A DNA stretch of 35,043 nt from Bacillota bacterium (lineage in GTDB: Bacteria; Bacillota; DTU065), in contig JAHDNZ010000080.1 of assembly GCA_018435125.1 (NCBI GenBank), positions 1-35,043 on the forward strand, in the 5' to 3' direction. Each line of letters begins with the position of its first letter. Within the stretch, counting starts at the first letter, position 1. The notes under the pieces were generated by a model. The model saw only the letters and a program-made list of their open reading frames with translations. It ran no database searches and was not told the origin of the DNA. The translations under genes and the position numbers were made by a program. This document shows, in pieces, positions 1,754-18,921 of the stretch.

Positions 1754-2257
1754 ATGGTTAAAGTTATAAACTTCCAGGTAAAAGAATTACCTAGGCTGTG
1801 GGTGGTGGGTAAAGCCCTAAAAGTAGATATGACAATACCAAACCCTATTCCCGAGTTTTGGGGACAATGTTTTAAAGAAGAGGTTTTTAACACTCTGGAA
1901 ACTCTCTCTCAATATCACCTTGATAATTCTTATGTGGGCTGGATGGGTGATTGGCAAAATGAAGACGGTACCTTTACTTATCTATGTGGGATGCTGATGA
2001 AGGTAAATACACCACTTTCAGAGGGATTTACCTATCGGGAAATTGCTAAGAGCAAAGTTGCTATTTCTTGGATTCAGGGGCTAGAAGCTGAGGTCTATCC
2101 CAAGGCCCACGAGTTAAGTGTAAAAGAGCTGGAGGCAAACGGTTATCAAGCAAAATGCTTTGACTGGAGTATGGAACTATATAATTGTCCGCGCTATACT
2201 CAACAAAATGACAAGGGAGAGATTATACTGGATTATTATCTCCCTCTAAAAGCCTAG
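1754..2257 (+). CDS. GyrI-like small-molecule-binding domain protein
   Basis: The 167-aa protein looks like a stand-alone GyrI-like/AraC effector-binding domain (Pfam GyrI-like family). Signs are the aromatic core VGWMGDW at 61-67, LCGMLMKV near 78-84, and a charged C-terminal ILDYYLPLK strand. It has no DNA-binding domain, signal peptide or membrane segment, so it is likely a cytoplasmic ligand-binding protein. In E. coli the related SbmC/GyrI is SOS-induced and inhibits DNA gyrase; many other family members bind drugs or act on xenobiotics. The LexA-type box in its promoter supports a damage-response role here. The start ATG 1754 has AGAGG about 8 bases upstream. It stands alone between a terminator and a convergent gene. 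Confidence 0.75.
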   Translation: MVKVINFQVKELPRLWVVGKALKVDMTIPNPIPEFWGQCFKEEVFNTLETLSQYHLDNSYVGWMGDWQNEDGTFTYLCGMLMKVNTPLSEGFTYREIAKSKVAISWIQGLEAEVYPKAHELSVKELEANGYQAKCFDWSMELYNCPRYTQQNDKGEIILDYYLPLKA

Positions 2258-2316
2258 AACAAGGATAAATAACGATAATTAGCTTAACGTCTAATTTTGG
2301 CTAAGGTCTAGGGCCA

Positions 2317-3003
2317 TTATTCTTTAGGTTCTTTGCTCTGAATATGGAGCTTACCCTGAGTATTAAGGCTGGCATAGAAAACATCGTTAATATCGTTTAA
2401 TCCGTGTTCTTTAATACTTTGAGCCAACCAGCTGTAACTTAAACCACAGAGTTCTAAGTTTTCGTATTTAATTGCTCCATCTAAGACCAAAGGAACACTT
2501 AAACCTTCATAGGGAGTAGGGATATTAAGATCTTTTGGGGCTATGGGCCGAGACTGTGAGCATGGGAAAACACTGATTTGTCCGGAGGTTTCAAGGACAG
2601 CAAACTCTACATCAGTTACATCACTATAACCGGAATTTCTAAGTTGCCCCATTAATTCATCAAGATTGTATCTTAGTTTGCGCAAGACATTTTCGCGTAT
2701 ATGGCCATTTTCAATTACAATAGTAGGACGTCCACTGATAAGAGTACGTACTTTTTCGCTTTTTAAGGACAGAGTGGAGATTAAAATTTCTAATCCGGCT
2801 AAGATTAAAATAGGATAGATAGAGTGAGTTAAAGGAGCGTGAATATTTTCAATTGGCAGTACGGCTAGTTCAGCTATCATAATAGCAATGACAAATTCAT
2901 ATGGCTGCAACTGCACCATCTGACGCTTACCCATAAGTCGCATAGCGATTAAGACAACAGCATATAAGATGACACTGCGATAAGAAATAATCACGTGGTG
3001 CAA
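2317..3003 (-). CDS. DUF421 family membrane protein (YetF/YkjA-like)
   Basis: This is a DUF421 protein of about 228 aa. It has three N-terminal hydrophobic segments including the family motif RLMGKRQMVQLQPYEFVIA, then a cytoplasmic domain (ISGRPTIVIENG, LRNSGYSDVTDVEFAVLE). The frame is open upstream to 3174, but that would run across the divergent dehydrogenase gene. I chose TTG at 3001-3003, which has GGGAGG 8 bases upstream and gives the usual family length; the adjacent TTG at 3004-3006 is an alternative. Family members in Bacillus are membrane proteins, some linked to spores or stress; the biochemical role is not settled. It is divergent from the Gfo/Idh/MocA gene with 117 bases between. 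Confidence 0.85.
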   Translation of the reverse strand: MHHVIISYRSVILYAVVLIAMRLMGKRQMVQLQPYEFVIAIMIAELAVLPIENIHAPLTHSIYPILILAGLEILISTLSLKSEKVRTLISGRPTIVIENGHIRENVLRKLRYNLDELMGQLRNSGYSDVTDVEFAVLETSGQISVFPCSQSRPIAPKDLNIPTPYEGLSVPLVLDGAIKYENLELCGLSYSWLAQSIKEHGLNDINDVFYASLNTQGKLHIQSKEPKE

Positions 3004-3120
3004 CAAAATTACCTCCCACAACCTATTTTCCCCACATTCTAGCAGGTTATTTTCGCAGGGTGGAGAAAGTAATTTTTGGAACCAGGTTAAACGTTGTGTT
3101 TTTATGAGGAGTGATATTAA

Positions 3121-4155
3121 ATGAAGGTTAGAATTGGAGTTATTGGTACTGGTGCCATTGCCAAATATCGGCATCTGCCCGAATATGCCTCCAGGAAAGA
3201 TGTAGAGATTGTTGCAGTTTGTGATATTGATAAAGCCAAAGCCGACAAAGTTGCCTTAAGGTTTGATGTGGGTCAGGTATACACAGATTACAAAGAGATG
3301 CTTGAAAAAGAAAAACTGGATGCTGTAAGTGTTTGTCTGCCAAACTACCTCCATGCTGAGGTTACGATCTATGCACTTAACCGTGGTCTTCATGTTCTGG
3401 TGGAAAAACCTATGGCCACCAGCTTAAAAGAAGCCGATGCCATGATTGATACAGCTAAGAAAAACAATCTTGTGCTCATGGTAGGGCAAAACCAACGCTT
3501 GGCACCTTTGCATGTCCTAGCTAAGAAGGTTATCGACAGCGGCATGTTAGGTAAGGTCAATACCTTTAGAACGGTTTTCGGTCATCAAGGTCCAGAGCAC
3601 TGGAGCCCGTCGGCCAAATGGTTTTTTGATAAGGAAAAAGCTTTTGCCGGATCTTTAGCAGATCTAGGCGTTCACAAAGTTGATCTCATTCAGTATCTTT
3701 TAGCAGATATTGATGAAGTAGCCTGTTTTTCAGCGATTATGGAGAAGAAAAATTGTACCGTTGATGACAATTCCGTAGCAATTGTGCATATGAAAAATGG
3801 TGTGATAGGCACCGTAGAGACTAGCTGGACTTACAAACCCAAAGAGGAAAACGGCACAGTTTTCTTCTGTGAAAAAGGGACTCTAAAAATGGCAGTAGAA
3901 CCGGATGCTCCACTGGTAGCTTACTTTAATGAACCCGGTAAGGGACGCCTTGTTTTTGAAGTACCTAAAATTCAAACTAACGAAGAAGGCGGGCAATTCT
4001 CTTCAGGAGTTATCGATAGCTTTATCGATACTATTAACGGCAAAATTCAAAACCCGATTCCCGGAAGCGAAGGCAGAAAAGCTCTCAGAGCAATTTTAGC
4101 TTGTATTGAATCTAATACCTCTAAAAGTAAGGTTCGGGTAGAGGAGGTTAAATAA
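3121..4155 (+). CDS. Gfo/Idh/MocA family NAD(P)-dependent sugar dehydrogenase
   Basis: The 344-aa oxidoreductase has an N-terminal Rossmann fold with the nucleotide-binding GTGAIA at 9-14, the conserved EKP at 95-97 whose Lys assists catalysis, and the D181/H185 pair in GSLADLGVHKVDL. It probably oxidises or reduces a hydroxyl of a sugar, inositol or sugar acid in the cytoplasm; the substrate cannot be read from sequence. GAGGAGTG lies upstream of ATG 3121. The next gene, a TIM-barrel isomerase, starts 2 bases after the stop with its ribosome site inside this gene, so the two are surely an operon and likely act in sequence. Such pairs are typical of inositol or unusual-sugar catabolism. Confidence 0.9.
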   Translation: MKVRIGVIGTGAIAKYRHLPEYASRKDVEIVAVCDIDKAKADKVALRFDVGQVYTDYKEMLEKEKLDAVSVCLPNYLHAEVTIYALNRGLHVLVEKPMATSLKEADAMIDTAKKNNLVLMVGQNQRLAPLHVLAKKVIDSGMLGKVNTFRTVFGHQGPEHWSPSAKWFFDKEKAFAGSLADLGVHKVDLIQYLLADIDEVACFSAIMEKKNCTVDDNSVAIVHMKNGVIGTVETSWTYKPKEENGTVFFCEKGTLKMAVEPDAPLVAYFNEPGKGRLVFEVPKIQTNEEGGQFSSGVIDSFIDTINGKIQNPIPGSEGRKALRAILACIESNTSKSKVRVEEVK

Positions 4156-13696: not shown

Positions 13697-14200
13697 GTGT
13701 GCCACGCATGGCGATTAACTAGACGATGAAAGTCCGTTATGGGGGTATGCGCGACCAACCATTAGCCAAAGGTAAGGGCGTCTGCCGCGAGGTGGAATTT
13801 GGAGAAAGTTGGAGTCACAGCCCTGAACAGACGGACAGAAATCACAAATAAGGCTGACTTAGGGTGGATGAGCTTGCAACACAAAGCAAAGTCCAATACT
13901 ACCCGAACCCTATGTAGTAAATGCAGCGGTTACATGAGATGAAGGTTATTGCACCATCCTTGGAGAAACTGAGTGGTATGCTACTTAAAAGATTGTTTTT
14001 GTATAATGGTAACTCTCATCGATAGATGAGTTTGAACGCGTAGTAGTCAGTTTGTTCCGTAGTAGCGGAGAAGTCAGCAAAACCGGCGGAGGAAAGGGAT
14101 AGCCAAGATATTGAGTACTTGAATCACTTTCGAGAACATAAAACCTCGAAGAAGGGCTGGGTGTCAAAGAATAGGTTGGAAACCGAAGGTATTATTACTT
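13697..14200 (+). mobile_element. 5' fragment of a group II intron (IIC-like), lacking RT and domains V-VI
   Basis: The block begins GTGTG followed by the GCCA..TGGC hairpin, the usual group II 5' end. It continues with features I recall from IIC introns such as the Oceanobacillus one: GATGAAAGTCC, AAGGTAAGGGCGTCTGCC, CCCTGAACAGACGGACAG, a GGCTGACTTAGG stretch, GGATGAGCTTGCAACACAAAG with CAAAGTCC, GTAGTAAATGCAGCGG, and GAGAAGTCAGCA near 14070. No reverse transcriptase frame and no domain V hairpin follow, so only the 5' ribozyme part remains and it cannot splice. The right edge is uncertain (about 14140-14215). Insertion just behind an intrinsic terminator is typical of IIC introns. Confidence 0.75.
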
Positions 14201-14601
14201 GAGCTTATTCTAGAATACTTAAAAAAAGAGACTCTAGGAGAAATGTTTGTTTACCAGATAACAATATGTTAGATAATGGCTGTATGCTCTTTATCTTTTT
14301 TTTATTGTGAAGATAAATAAAATCCAAAAAGACGTTACAACATTCGTTAAAAAGCAAGAAATAAGGTTAGAACGTGGTAGGCATTTAATGAACTACTTAG
14401 CTTCAATCTAGAAGAACTTGGAGGCCTAGGTTGTGGGAAATATAATTTTAGAAGATTATGGGTTTATTGTCATATAACGATGTAAGAAAAAATTGAAGTG
14501 AAGTTGATTTATATCCATGTGATTTTGACTTCTTGGGAGTAATCCATTTAGATAACAAAGAGCACTACTGCTTTATTGTAGTTTGGATTTTGCTTTAGGA
14601 G
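14201..14601. other. decayed intergenic DNA with short gene remnants
   Basis: No intact gene. A plus frame around 14266-14307 reads MLDNGCMLFIFFLL and nearly repeats a fragment at 16817. Another broken plus frame around 14500-14600 contains GVIHLDNKEHYCFIVVWILL, which has a similar texture. Both look like gene debris. Nothing else is recognisable. Confidence 0.35.
14266..14295 (+). repeat. 30-base near-repeat, copy 1 (partner 16817-16846)
   Basis: Starts ATGTTAGATAATGGC and ends CTGTATGCTCTTTATC. It differs from the copy at 16817-16846 at 3 of 30 positions; two of these are synonymous in the MLDN(G/D)CMLFI frame. Confidence 0.7.
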
Positions 14602-14672: not shown

Positions 14673-14713
14673 ATGATGAGGGGGCTGAGCGGAGAGCGAA
14701 GCCCCCTCATCAT
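14673..14713 (-). terminator. 14-bp perfect hairpin after istB
   Basis: Arms 14673-14686 and 14700-14713 pair perfectly around a 13-base loop. It lies 6 bases beyond the istB stop and is followed on the minus strand by a pyrimidine-rich CTCTCTTTC. It may end IS transcription or block read-through. Confidence 0.55.
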
Positions 14714-14718
14714 TTGCA

Positions 14719-15486
14719 TCATTTGGTAAGTGGTATCATTCGAGATCGTATTCGATAACTTTCGCCTTTTAATGGGAAAACATGTGCATGGTGTAAAAGT
14801 CTATCCAAGACAGCTGCTGCTATACTTGATGAAGCAAAAAGTGTTCCCCATTCTGCAAAATCTAGATTACTAGTTATAATTAAAGAACGGGTTTCATACG
14901 CATTTGAAATAAGCTGAAAAAAATGGTCCGATGCTATTTGATTCATAGCTTGGTATCCAACTTCGTCGATTATTATTAAGTCATGTCTCAATATAGTCCG
15001 TACTTTCTTTCTAACTGTCCCGTCGACTAACGATGAGTATAAATCGTCGATTAGGTCTCCAAAGCTGTAAAAACGCACTTTATAGCCGGCTTTAATGGCC
15101 TCAAAGCCTAGGCCTATAGCTAGATGGCTCTTACCAACGCCTGGTGGACCTAGAAAGATAATATTTTCATGGTTGTTAATGAAATCGAGACGTGATAAAT
15201 CATGGATAACTTGTTGGCTTACAGAGTTTTGAAAGTTGAAATCAAAACTGTTTATGGTTTTAATATTAGGGAATTTGGCTAACTGCAGATTTTTATTCTC
15301 TAAAGTCTGATCCCTTCCGTTTACCTCATAGTTAACCAAATAGCCTAAAAAATCGAGGTAACCTGCTTCTTCTGCCATTGCAATTTCGTTAACATCATTT
15401 GGTATTCCACGTATGTGTTTTAATTTAAGTCTTTTCAAACCAGCGATCAACTGTTCTTTGTCGATTGGGGGTATTTGTCGAATCAT
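14719..15486 (-). CDS. istB: IS21-family transposition helper ATPase IstB
   Basis: The 255-aa AAA+ ATPase has Walker A GPPGVGKS at 113-120, Walker B LIIIDEVGY and the typical ending that reads like IstB/DnaC-type loaders. It works with the IstA transposase to select targets and drive strand transfer. Its ATG at 15484-15486 overlaps the TGA stop of the istA remnant (ATGA), the usual coupled arrangement. The reading frame looks full length, in contrast to istA. Confidence 0.92.
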   Translation of the reverse strand: MIRQIPPIDKEQLIAGLKRLKLKHIRGIPNDVNEIAMAEEAGYLDFLGYLVNYEVNGRDQTLENKNLQLAKFPNIKTINSFDFNFQNSVSQQVIHDLSRLDFINNHENIIFLGPPGVGKSHLAIGLGFEAIKAGYKVRFYSFGDLIDDLYSSLVDGTVRKKVRTILRHDLIIIDEVGYQAMNQIASDHFFQLISNAYETRSLIITSNLDFAEWGTLFASSSIAAAVLDRLLHHAHVFPLKGESYRIRSRMIPLTK

Positions 15487-16623
15487 TTGCCTACATCCCC
15501 ATAATAGCTAAGATCTCGTTTTTGCACCCCAATGTTATAATTTGAATCCTCTAAAATTTTACTTGGCTGGTCGGTTTCTAGGACTTCCGGACACAAGGTT
15601 ATCTTTCGTAATATATTTTTAAGTGAACTGTATCCTATTGCTTTATAATCCAAAGCTCGTCTCATTCCAGCACTTATTTGTTCTGGAGTAAATGTTTTTT
15701 TCAGTTCTATAATTTTTTCCATTTGTTCCCGCAGACTACTACATTTACCAGGTAAGTGAGCTAAATAATCCTTTGCTTCTGGTGCTAACTCTTCAAACTC
15801 GATTTCTAACTTGCTTTTTTTAGTTTTTGAAATTAAATGTGCCGGATAATGCTCATCTAATATAACTCTTTGGTTTACACCATCAACAAAAGTGTGTGAT
15901 GCTTCTAATTGGTTGTTATTATAGACTTAACGCAATTTTCAACTTTACCCTTACACTCTGGATCCTCAACCCAACATGCTCTCGGCATAAAACCATAAGT
16001 TAGTGCTACTTTTAATAAGTTCCTGTTAAATTGGATAGTACTGCCAACTCTTTCGGAGACAATGGTTTTAGCATTATCAAAAAGTAATGTCTGGGGAATA
16101 CCACCGATATAATCAAAAGCACGATGTAGAGAAGCAAAGAAAGTAGCTAAACCTAAATCTGTCACTATTTCAGCATACCTAACCCTTGACCAAGAAAGTG
16201 TAAACGCAAATGCGTATGCTTTTACCTTTTTATCACCATGGGGAATATATCCTAAATAACCCCAGTCAACCTGAGCTTGTTCACCTTCTAATGTTTCATA
16301 AGGTTTATACTCTCTTTTTTCTTTTGGGGGTCTTTTTGCTGCGACAAATCTTCTAACTGTTCTAGCGCTACCTTTGTATCCTTTTTTCTTAATCTTTCTA
16401 CACAAGCGTTCAGCCGTTAATTCTGGATATTTTTCCAAACGACTTATGATATAATTATTAAAAGGTTCTATTTTGGAAGTGCGTTCTTTGAGCTGTATGT
16501 CTTGAATATCGCTTTCGTTGTTCCAGTATTTCTATGAATTCCTAAACGTTCTGCTACTGCTATTTGGGTTAGGCCCTTATCCCGATATTTATGAATTTCC
16601 AACAATTTAGTCACCTCAATCAT
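15483..16623 (-). pseudogene. istA: IS21 transposase istA, frameshifted and internally deleted
   Basis: ATG 16623 behind AAAGGAG starts MIEVTKLLEIHKYRDKGL and continues to IHRNT, the helix-turn-helix end. Near 16524 the frame breaks; the protein resumes in another frame at YWNNESDIQDIQLKER and runs through the integrase core (QVDWGYLGYIPH, LLFDNAKTIV, CKGKVENCVK, covering the D-D-E residues) to a false stop at 15905. A third frame then carries the C-terminus (SHTFVDGVNQRVILDEHYPAHL to SYYGDVGK, stop at 15483). The part after the catalytic Glu appears shortened by roughly 100 residues, so a deletion near 15920 is likely. The first break could be a short deletion between two AATAC repeats. The transposase must be inactive. 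Confidence 0.85.
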
Positions 16624-16775
16624 TTTGCCTACTCCTTTGTCTAATTTTTTGTCACAATAGACACTTAAAGGGGTAGGCTTTTTTTACCTTTTTTTATGAC
16701 TAAAATGCTGAATTTCTTGTCCGTTTTTGCACATTTTTAATGGCCATTTATGCACATTATAACTTGTCCATTAAC

Positions 16776-17207
16776 AAGTGAATCTGGGAGAGATGCATAT
16801 TTACAAGGTAGCGTTTATGTTAGACAACGACTGTATGCTCTTTATCCTGTGTAAAGGTGGGATGTTTGATCCATTGGCTGATGAATGGCTAGATGAGTAA
16901 TTGAATTAGCACTTACTTACATGCAATTGCAGGGTTTTGTTAATTAAGATACGAGCTAATTAATGAATGATTATGTAGTAGTTAAAGTAAATTTCATAAA
17001 TTTCTAATTTTGAATGAAACTGGGAAGGACATTCTTACCTAGTAACTAAATGTAAATTAGTGAAGATGCGGCTAAATAGCAAAAGATATAGCTTAATTAT
17101 AATTGAAAGTAATAGCGAGTGGGAAACGAGTGCTGAAAACAAGAGCAAAAGAAAAAATTAATTGAGGTAAAGGTAATAAATGGAGAAAAAAAGGAGGACT
17201 GAGCAAT
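16776..17207. other. spacer with a gene-end remnant before the M48 gene
   Basis: A plus frame from about 16793 to TAG/TAA near 16900 reads MHIYKVAFMLDNDCMLFILC and then GGMFDPLADEWLDE, stop. It looks like the end of an unknown gene or a small immunity-type protein. The remainder to 17190 is very A+T-rich with no recognised element. AAGGAGG at 17191-17197 serves the next gene. Confidence 0.3.
16817..16846 (+). repeat. 30-base near-repeat, copy 2 (partner 14266-14295)
   Basis: ATGTTAGACAACGAC...CTGTATGCTCTTTATC matches 27 of 30 bases of the copy at 14266. The two copies flank the IS21 element, at different distances from its ends. Confidence 0.7.
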
Positions 17208-18921
17208 GTGTTGACATCTAATGAAGTTTTAAACACTTGTCGAACATACTCAGGTAAAGACTATTATGTAGGACAAGCTATTCTACCTAAGCATTTAAAA
17301 AATGCTCGCAGTATTTTTCCAATCCCAAGTGATGAAGAAATCCATGCTTTTATTAACTCTACTGTTTTTAATAGCGGTAAAGAAGGATTAGCAATTGGCG
17401 CTCATGGAATATACTGGAGAAGTATAAGTAGCTCTAAACAAAATAAATTAACATGGGAAGAATTTATAAATGTTGAAGTAAGAATAGAAAAAAACGACTT
17501 AATTCTTGGGGCAAGTAATGCGTTCAATATGTCTGGTAGTTTCTTTTCGAAAGACATTTTGCTCACTTTACTATTGGAATTACAAAGTAAAACGAAAGAG
17601 CAATTTATTAGGCAAAAACGATGGATGCTTGCAATTGATGGAAGTCAAAGTGGTCCTTATACGACAGACGATATTAATCAACTAATTATTGAAAGTAAAA
17701 TTGATCCATATTTATCTTATGTATGGAGTGAAGGCATGTCGGAATGGGTTTTAGCTCACCAGAAACAAGAGTTTTCATCTTTTTTGAAAGGTAAAAGTGT
17801 TCCACCACCATTACCTCCTAGAATTCAAGCAGATGGAACTGTTAAACCACCAATATTACATAATATAGAGCCAACTAAATCGAAAGAAGAAGTTGAAAAG
17901 CCTTTTAGCCAAATAGCTATAACTGTTAATAAAGCTGAATTACAAACAAGTAACTTGAGAGATAATTTATCTGCCAAAAAAAATGATAGCGAAGTAAAGA
18001 ACTTTATCAATCTTACATCTTATATTCAAGAAAAAGGTTTGCTGGGAATAAAACCAAAAGCGATTAAGACTTTTAGTTGGTTTCTACTAGTTAATGCCGC
18101 AGTTGCGATTTCTATAATAATAATTTCGGGTGGGGAATTGCTAAGAGTAATACCGTATTTTTTAATATGTGGAAGTGTCTTTCCTCTTATAAACTTAATG
18201 TTTTCTACGACGTTTGCTAAAAAAGTCCATAGAATGACAGTGATTCGAGAAGGTAACTTTTTAAACTCATCCGAAGAAGGTCTATACAGTTTAGTCCAAA
18301 CGTTATCGAAAAGGGCTGGCTTAGAGAGAACTCCACAAGTAGCTATCTATGAAAGTGAAGATTATAATGCTTTTGCAACTGGAATGAATAAAAAACGATC
18401 GTTAATTGCGTTTAGCACTAGCCTGTTGAGTAATGTGAATGAACGAAGTATAGCTGCAGTGGCTGCCCATGAAATATCCCATATTGCAAATGGTGATATG
18501 TTGACAATGACACTTACCCAGAGTGTTATTAATGCAATTGTTCTTATGGTAACAATTCCATTTTCACTTTTAAAAAGTGCTAGCCTTTTTTTCAGAAGAT
18601 GTAGGTAGGGTTCAATATAAGATAATTTGCTTTGTTAAAGTAGTAGTATCCTCGATTTGTCTATTTTTAGGTAATTTAGTTGTAAAAGCATTTTCTAGGA
18701 AAAGAGAATTTGAAGCTGATGCACTTGCGGCAGTATTGATTGACAAAGAATCGATGGTAGAAGCATTAAATTCATTAAGTAGATCACCAGTTTCCTTTCC
18801 TAAGGAGCAAGGTGATTATGCTGCTTTTAAAATTAATGGAACACCAGCTTGGCTTGACATTTTTTCAACACACCCCTCAATTGAGCGACGTATTGCTAGA
18901 CTAGAAAAACTTTCTCAATAA
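17208..18921 (+). pseudogene. HtpX-like M48 protease with N-terminal PH-like and GYF_2 domains, split by a frameshift
   Basis: GTG 17208 (AAGGAGG 10 bases upstream) opens a 466-aa frame. About 33-130 is a PH-like beta domain (GLAIGAHGIYWRS, LTWEEFINVEV). About 139-190 is a GYF_2/DUF4339 domain (GPYTTDDINQLI, SYVWSEGMSEWVLA). A Pro-rich linker and two membrane segments (about 288-334) follow. The M48B core has NAFATGMNKKRSLIAFST and the zinc motif HEISH (421-425). The frame ends in RRC after a T7 tract (18586-18592). The next frame carries the rest: a membrane segment, the third zinc ligand in FEADALAA, and the HtpX-type ending FSTHPSIERRIARLEKL, stop at 18921. One extra T explains the break. 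It is a pseudogene, a sequencing error, or a slippage-expressed gene. Base composition is poorer in G+C than in flanking core genes. Confidence 0.8.

Follow-up and report, generated by a model that had tools for sequence, protein, structure and literature searches.

The gene considered here lies on the plus strand of the window, the whole 35,043-nucleotide stretch of DNA that was analysed, and belongs to a draft genome of 2.55 Mb that is 96% complete and consists of 91 contigs. Matches to flagellin and SipL make it probable that the source organism is a spore former of the Bacillota; in the genome collection its class holds five genomes, all from a single family. The gene is made up of two open reading frames (ORFs) in different reading frames. 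The first, of 466 amino acids, extends from a GTG start at 17208 to a stop at 18606-18608, and a Shine-Dalgarno-like GGAGG (17193-17197) can be read 10 nt 5' of the start codon. Its translation and Pfam matches place an N-terminal domain first and the GYF_2 domain next; a linker and hydrophobic stretches lead on to the first half of an M48 protease of the HtpX type, at the end of which lies the stop.

The N-terminal domain (17220-17597) is probably PH-like, with distant relatives, weak fold support and no profile support. The GYF_2 domain (17622-17771; Pfam PF14237) covers residues 139-188 of the first ORF and scores 37.9 bits, where 25.8 are required (E 1.5e-9); 3' of it lies the proline-rich linker VPPPLPP (17799-17819). 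The first half of the protease occupies 18078-18605 and contains the HEISH motif (18468-18482). The reading frame changes at a tract of seven Ts (T7, 18586-18592), after which the original frame continues for 13 nt before it reaches the stop. The second ORF (18577-18921, listed as 114 amino acids) holds the second half of HtpX and has no internal stop. Pfam Peptidase_M48 matches residues 357-449 of the first ORF over profile positions 5-99, and the second ORF over positions 122-185, scoring 66.7 and 42.6 bits respectively against a cut-off of 20.3. The initial annotation had described a broken fusion of GYF_2 and HtpX, and the two ORFs in two frames, with Pfam domains on both sides of the break, confirm this.

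The HtpX part and its closest relative

Bacterial HtpX is described as a Zn-dependent membrane protease implicated in the degradation of misfolded envelope proteins (PMC9263693). The window gene resembles HtpX (M48B) in its HEXXH, the Glu of RExxAD, the THP motif and its best NCBIfam model, and differs from it in a front extension of about 280 residues with GYF_2, in being split by a frame change, and in that each half falls under the family cut-off. The top model for both halves is HtpX NF003965 (PRK05457), which from its family name we take to be HtpX M48B of the E. coli type. On this equivalog, with a cut-off of 245 bits, the separately scored halves reach 137.4 and 76.7 bits, and the open HtpX of the closest relative reaches 237.3. 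All zinc ligands had been said to be present once one T is taken out of the tract, and the motifs are indeed there: HEISH is 5' of the break, and the Glu of REFEAD (18706-18708), the third zinc ligand in this family, lies with the THP motif in the 3' frame.

The closest relative found is an HtpX locus, L023, in a Natronincola sp. MAG (DUPA01000029). Its HtpX is open across the site of the break and has no T tract there. The first half of the window protease aligns with it free of gaps as far as residue 461, and from that point the alignment goes on in the second half. In nucleotide sequence, window positions 18078-18896 (819 nt) match L023 positions 872-1689 (818 nt), so that the net difference is one base. 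Because the alignment passes continuously from the first half to the second, a single frame change can be placed at T7, and in the present assembly HtpX is not read in one uninterrupted frame. Protein identity to L023 is 57% (110/193) before the break and 72% (80/111) after it, or 102/173 and 77/108 when counted by alignment columns; this sole close comparator is one MAG contig, itself damaged in its front part.

A broader set was formed from the 14 of 38 loci that passed a length and motif filter, L023 included. The window gene keeps 41 of the 48 HtpX columns that are conserved at 85% or more in this set, the catalytic ones among them, and 34 of 37 when the gene that was present twice, as L018 and L074, is counted once, which leaves 13 distinct genes. 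Seven columns are changed. L023 shares the window residue at 173, 191 and 289 and has another non-consensus residue at 186; at 56, 171 and 176 it has the consensus and the window differs, all three positions lying before the break and one being an invariant Gly replaced by Ser. Conservation of both halves, as initially claimed, holds for the HtpX part; the relatives found for the N-terminal part are all distant.

Further inactivating changes were looked for in both halves and none was found, the comparison being with one close relative. In the 3' part, neither a stop nor a second frame change was seen against L023. In a relative-rate count, with 12 distinct but mutually related outgroups, changes unique to the window and to L023 numbered 123 and 118 in the 5' part and 45 and 32 in the 3' part; there is no clear relaxation of the 3' part, and the tilt of 45 against 32 is possibly a hint of slight relaxation. 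The break appears young because identity to L023 is 72% after it and no further lesion has accumulated. In a neutral simulation of the stop-free 342-nt frame, the probability of finding no stop was 0.87, 0.53, 0.28 and 0.11 at 1, 5, 10 and 20% divergence. Since a stop-free 342 nt remains plausible at 5-10% neutral divergence, the age of the break is bounded only loosely.

The GYF_2 domain and the rarity of the fusion

The layout had been called uncommon, and within our searches this was borne out, with one relative, L023, showing a trace of the same fusion. GYF_2 gave 22 matches in 14 of the 398 genomes of the phylum, and among these 22 an HExxH was read in the same stretch only in the window gene and at a locus denoted L061; one long GYF_2 ORF (L055) ran off the end of its locus. 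The window gene is like bacterial GYF_2 (DUF4339) membrane proteins in its general plan, several of those read having GYF_2 near the N terminus, a linker and hydrophobic segments, and unlike them in carrying HExxH beside GYF_2, a feature shared, in the stretches read, with L061 alone.

The fusion was also searched for more widely. Two loci were confirmed among genome contigs: L023 and L024, the latter a GYF_2-like ORF of 241 amino acids in which no HExxH was seen by eye. At 1e-10, 20 of 101 genomes of relatives matched, including that of the window, and the other 19 matched over the HtpX part only; at 1e-6, matches were found in 11 of 60 relatives of the L023 genome, with L023's own genome included. 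No record in a search of 1268 plasmid records covered 80% of the query, and the best 20 of the 1268 match the HtpX part only. In the five genomes of the class, the single match was the window itself. When the N-terminal 207 amino acids were used against the phylum, 6 of 398 genomes matched, the window's included, and of the six other match rows five fell within GYF_2 and the remaining one spanned residues 58-201. Viral contigs searched for the fusion gave no match, nor did phages searched with the N-terminal part. Judged by title, no paper was found on GYF_2/DUF4339 fused to HtpX/M48.

In L023, at 727-900, a 55-nt remnant 5' of HtpX is 75% identical to the GYF_2 of the window gene and lies in a different frame from HtpX. 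Little else is left of GYF_2, the linker is gone, and the N-terminal domain was not seen. A deletion of the missing GYF_2 and linker sequence could have damaged the front of this locus, or the damage could be an assembly fault. Because L023 keeps a remnant of the same GYF_2 upstream of HtpX, the GYF_2-HtpX junction is probably older than the split between the two copies. In the present assemblies neither carrier has the fusion in one open frame.

The stretch at L061 (871-1641, minus strand) encodes 256 amino acids with a GYF_2 match and a membrane-like part containing HEAGH. This may be a second fusion of GYF_2 to a metalloprotease, although not an obvious M48. Binding of GYF_2 to its own proline-rich linker was considered for the window protein and set aside: a PPP run 3' of GYF_2 occurs in just 3 of 13 GYF_2-like ORFs, the window's included.

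The N-terminal domain

The description of the N-terminal domain as PH-like found weak support, in a structure model of low confidence (pLDDT 50.6) whose neighbours mostly have the PH superfold, and none in profile comparisons. The domain had no match in Pfam, in PDB sequences or with the bPH_3 profile, and hhalign against small bPH_3 sets gave a probability of at most 2.4%; four loci (L103, L104, L106 and L107) were left out before the profile comparison. Column shuffles reached the PH-set score in 1 of 100 cases with a set of eight sequences and in 93 of 100 with a set of five, and because the two sets disagreed no conclusion was drawn from this test. The structure predicted for residues 1-200 had a pLDDT of 40.4, too low for it to be of use. 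Among the 50 VIA-align neighbours listed for the domain model, nearly all have the PH superfold, judged by title, with Z scores of 3.5-4.5; they include the bacterial PH structures 3hsa and 3dcx over 83-86 residues and FERM domains, in which the aligned ranges correspond to the last lobe. Foldseek returned nothing at E of 0.001 or below, and the matches listed point in the direction of PH. On these structural neighbours the domain is probably PH-like.

Distant relatives of the domain were found in six plasmid records of Priestia megaterium. Both Priestia proteins that were read carry two copies in tandem, with 22-30% aligned identity to that of the window (e.g. WP_318619309), and the one that was scanned has no Pfam match, hence neither GYF_2 nor a protease part. 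At two Priestia plasmid loci (L037 and L132, both 2091-3891) the tandem-domain gene is divergent from a gene for a site-2 protease, with a Pfam M50 match in the one scanned; three other loci lack the arrangement. One such locus had suggested a link between the N-terminal domain and M50 proteases, and this idea was dropped, as an M50 gene adjoins the tandem-domain gene in just two of the five loci read.

Origin and dispensability of the gene

The gene has a GC content of 32-35% and a GC3 of 18-26%, against 38-45% and 29-40% for 13 chosen other ORFs of the window, and at 1e-10 its protein has no match in four genomes of the family. This low GC and the absence from family members suggest that the gene was gained laterally and is accessory, and it sits beside mobile DNA that appears to be decaying. 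The only M48 matches in the organism's own genome are the two halves of this gene. No M48 match was found in three of the four family genomes (completeness 93, 85 and 92%), and on this gene content an M48 protease is dispensable in the lineage.

Explanations for the frame change

Three causes had been put forward for the frame change: a recent break, a homopolymer sequencing error and expression by slippage. The first fits best. We judge it likely on balance that a laterally acquired gene for a PH-like/GYF_2/HtpX protease was recently frameshifted by one base at T7. The gene, probably of lateral origin, would specify, or would until recently have specified, a zinc membrane protease of the HtpX type (M48B). 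Its front extension would combine a domain that is probably PH-like with the GYF_2 adaptor, and these front domains may recruit substrates or regulate them. A change of one base in the length of the T tract, presumably present in the DNA of the cell, would then have shifted the frame 3' of the active-site helix and the hydrophobic stretch that follows it. The main product would now be a protein of 466 residues that has the adaptor domains and HEXXH but neither the Glu ligand nor the C-terminal region. It should have no protease activity, since a product ending at 18605 lacks the Glu that is the third zinc ligand in this family. Frame loss is also seen next door, where istA lies in three frames, and we count this for recent gene loss.

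The same neighbourhood could be read as a sign of old, ordinary pseudogene decay, given that the adjoining mobile DNA shows decay of its own, with istA spread over three frames and a fragment of a group II intron. This is very improbable for the protease gene, as neither half has a stop or a second frame change and identity to L023 after the break is 72%. Those well-conserved halves, with their lack of a second lesion, are equally what would be expected if the cell's own gene were intact and the Ts of the tract had been miscounted, or if the consensus mixed strains. A lone error at T7 would give an identical picture, and no other M48 gene was found in this genome, a 91-contig draft. An error of this sort is possible, though we think it unlikely. 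Together with 20 stretches sampled from its genome, the window contains 222 homopolymers of at least 7 nt inside ORFs of at least 150 amino acids. Of these tracts, 162 are 40 codons or more away from either end of the ORF, and 13 have a stop within 60 nt, where 12.7 would be expected. There were no frameshift-like joins among the 37 of 236 ORF probes from one family member that matched at 40% identity or more (13,070 amino acids), and none in the reverse test among 28 of 241 matched ORFs (10,615 amino acids); the target of the survey included the window, and the known break at T7 was invisible to it because no probe from the family genome G003 matched the GYF_2-HtpX gene. With stop-proximal tracts not enriched and no such joins, a general homopolymer problem is unlikely in the sampled assembly. 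In addition, the same gene carries A7 and A8 tracts in frame.

Slippage by RNA polymerase or the ribosome would yield mainly the truncated adaptor, accompanied by some full-length protease. The usual ribosomal slip on such a heptamer is -1, and the frame change required here is in the opposite direction. For transcription, a reporter study with E. coli RNA polymerase gives no detectable slippage below seven Ts, an insertion rescue of about 5% at T7, and 10% insertion and 10% deletion rescue at T8; T7 is thus the shortest T run with measurable rescue (PMC6260861). By mRNA sequencing in the same study, insertions amounted to 0.82% at a T6 tract and 0.75% at a T7 tract (PMC6260861). Rescue of an interrupted gene also has a precedent in Citrobacter tssM, where an A11 tract acts by slippage (PMC4256274), and the 3' part of the window gene is preserved. 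However, the expected efficiency at T7 is low, homopolymer deletions are described as rare in E. coli transcripts in a further study (PMC5574713), and a recent break accounts for the conservation equally well. Nor is the slippery tract conserved, being missing from this site in L023, the only close relative found. Slippage is therefore without support from conservation and we regard it as improbable. More doubtful still is a reading in which T7 acts as a switch between mostly a truncated membrane adaptor (PH-like, GYF_2 and anchor, with an incomplete zinc site) and a minor full-length protease. The full-length form would then arise by slippage or by reversible changes of tract length in the population, and the truncated adaptor might compete with it or sense for it.

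What was found is a rare variant of a known protease with a real frame change in this assembly, most likely a fresh loss of the gene. As such a loss would fall where M48 proteases are dispensable, the gene matters mainly for annotation. Should an intact form exist in other strains, it would be an HtpX protease coupled to a GYF_2 adaptor and, probably, to a PH-like domain; recruitment of substrates would be an inbuilt, testable feature of a membrane quality-control protease.

Adjoining mobile DNA

Directly after a flagellin gene, at 13781-13953 on the plus strand, the window has a match to group II intron domains D1-D4 (Rfam RF02001, 102 bits). This is probably a fragment without a reverse transcriptase, since no plus-strand ORF of at least 90 amino acids lies between the match and 17208. 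An IS21-type element occupies 14700-16680 on the minus strand, with istB intact (255 amino acids) and istA (15486-16659) split over three frames; the changes in istA are not at tracts of 7 nt or more. Matches to the element, of 123 nt (90%) and 37 nt (95%), occur on two other contigs. It is flanked by a 31-nt direct repeat (90%) at 14265-14295 and 16816-16846, and these two alone were found when the organism's genome was searched with the copy at 16816-16846.
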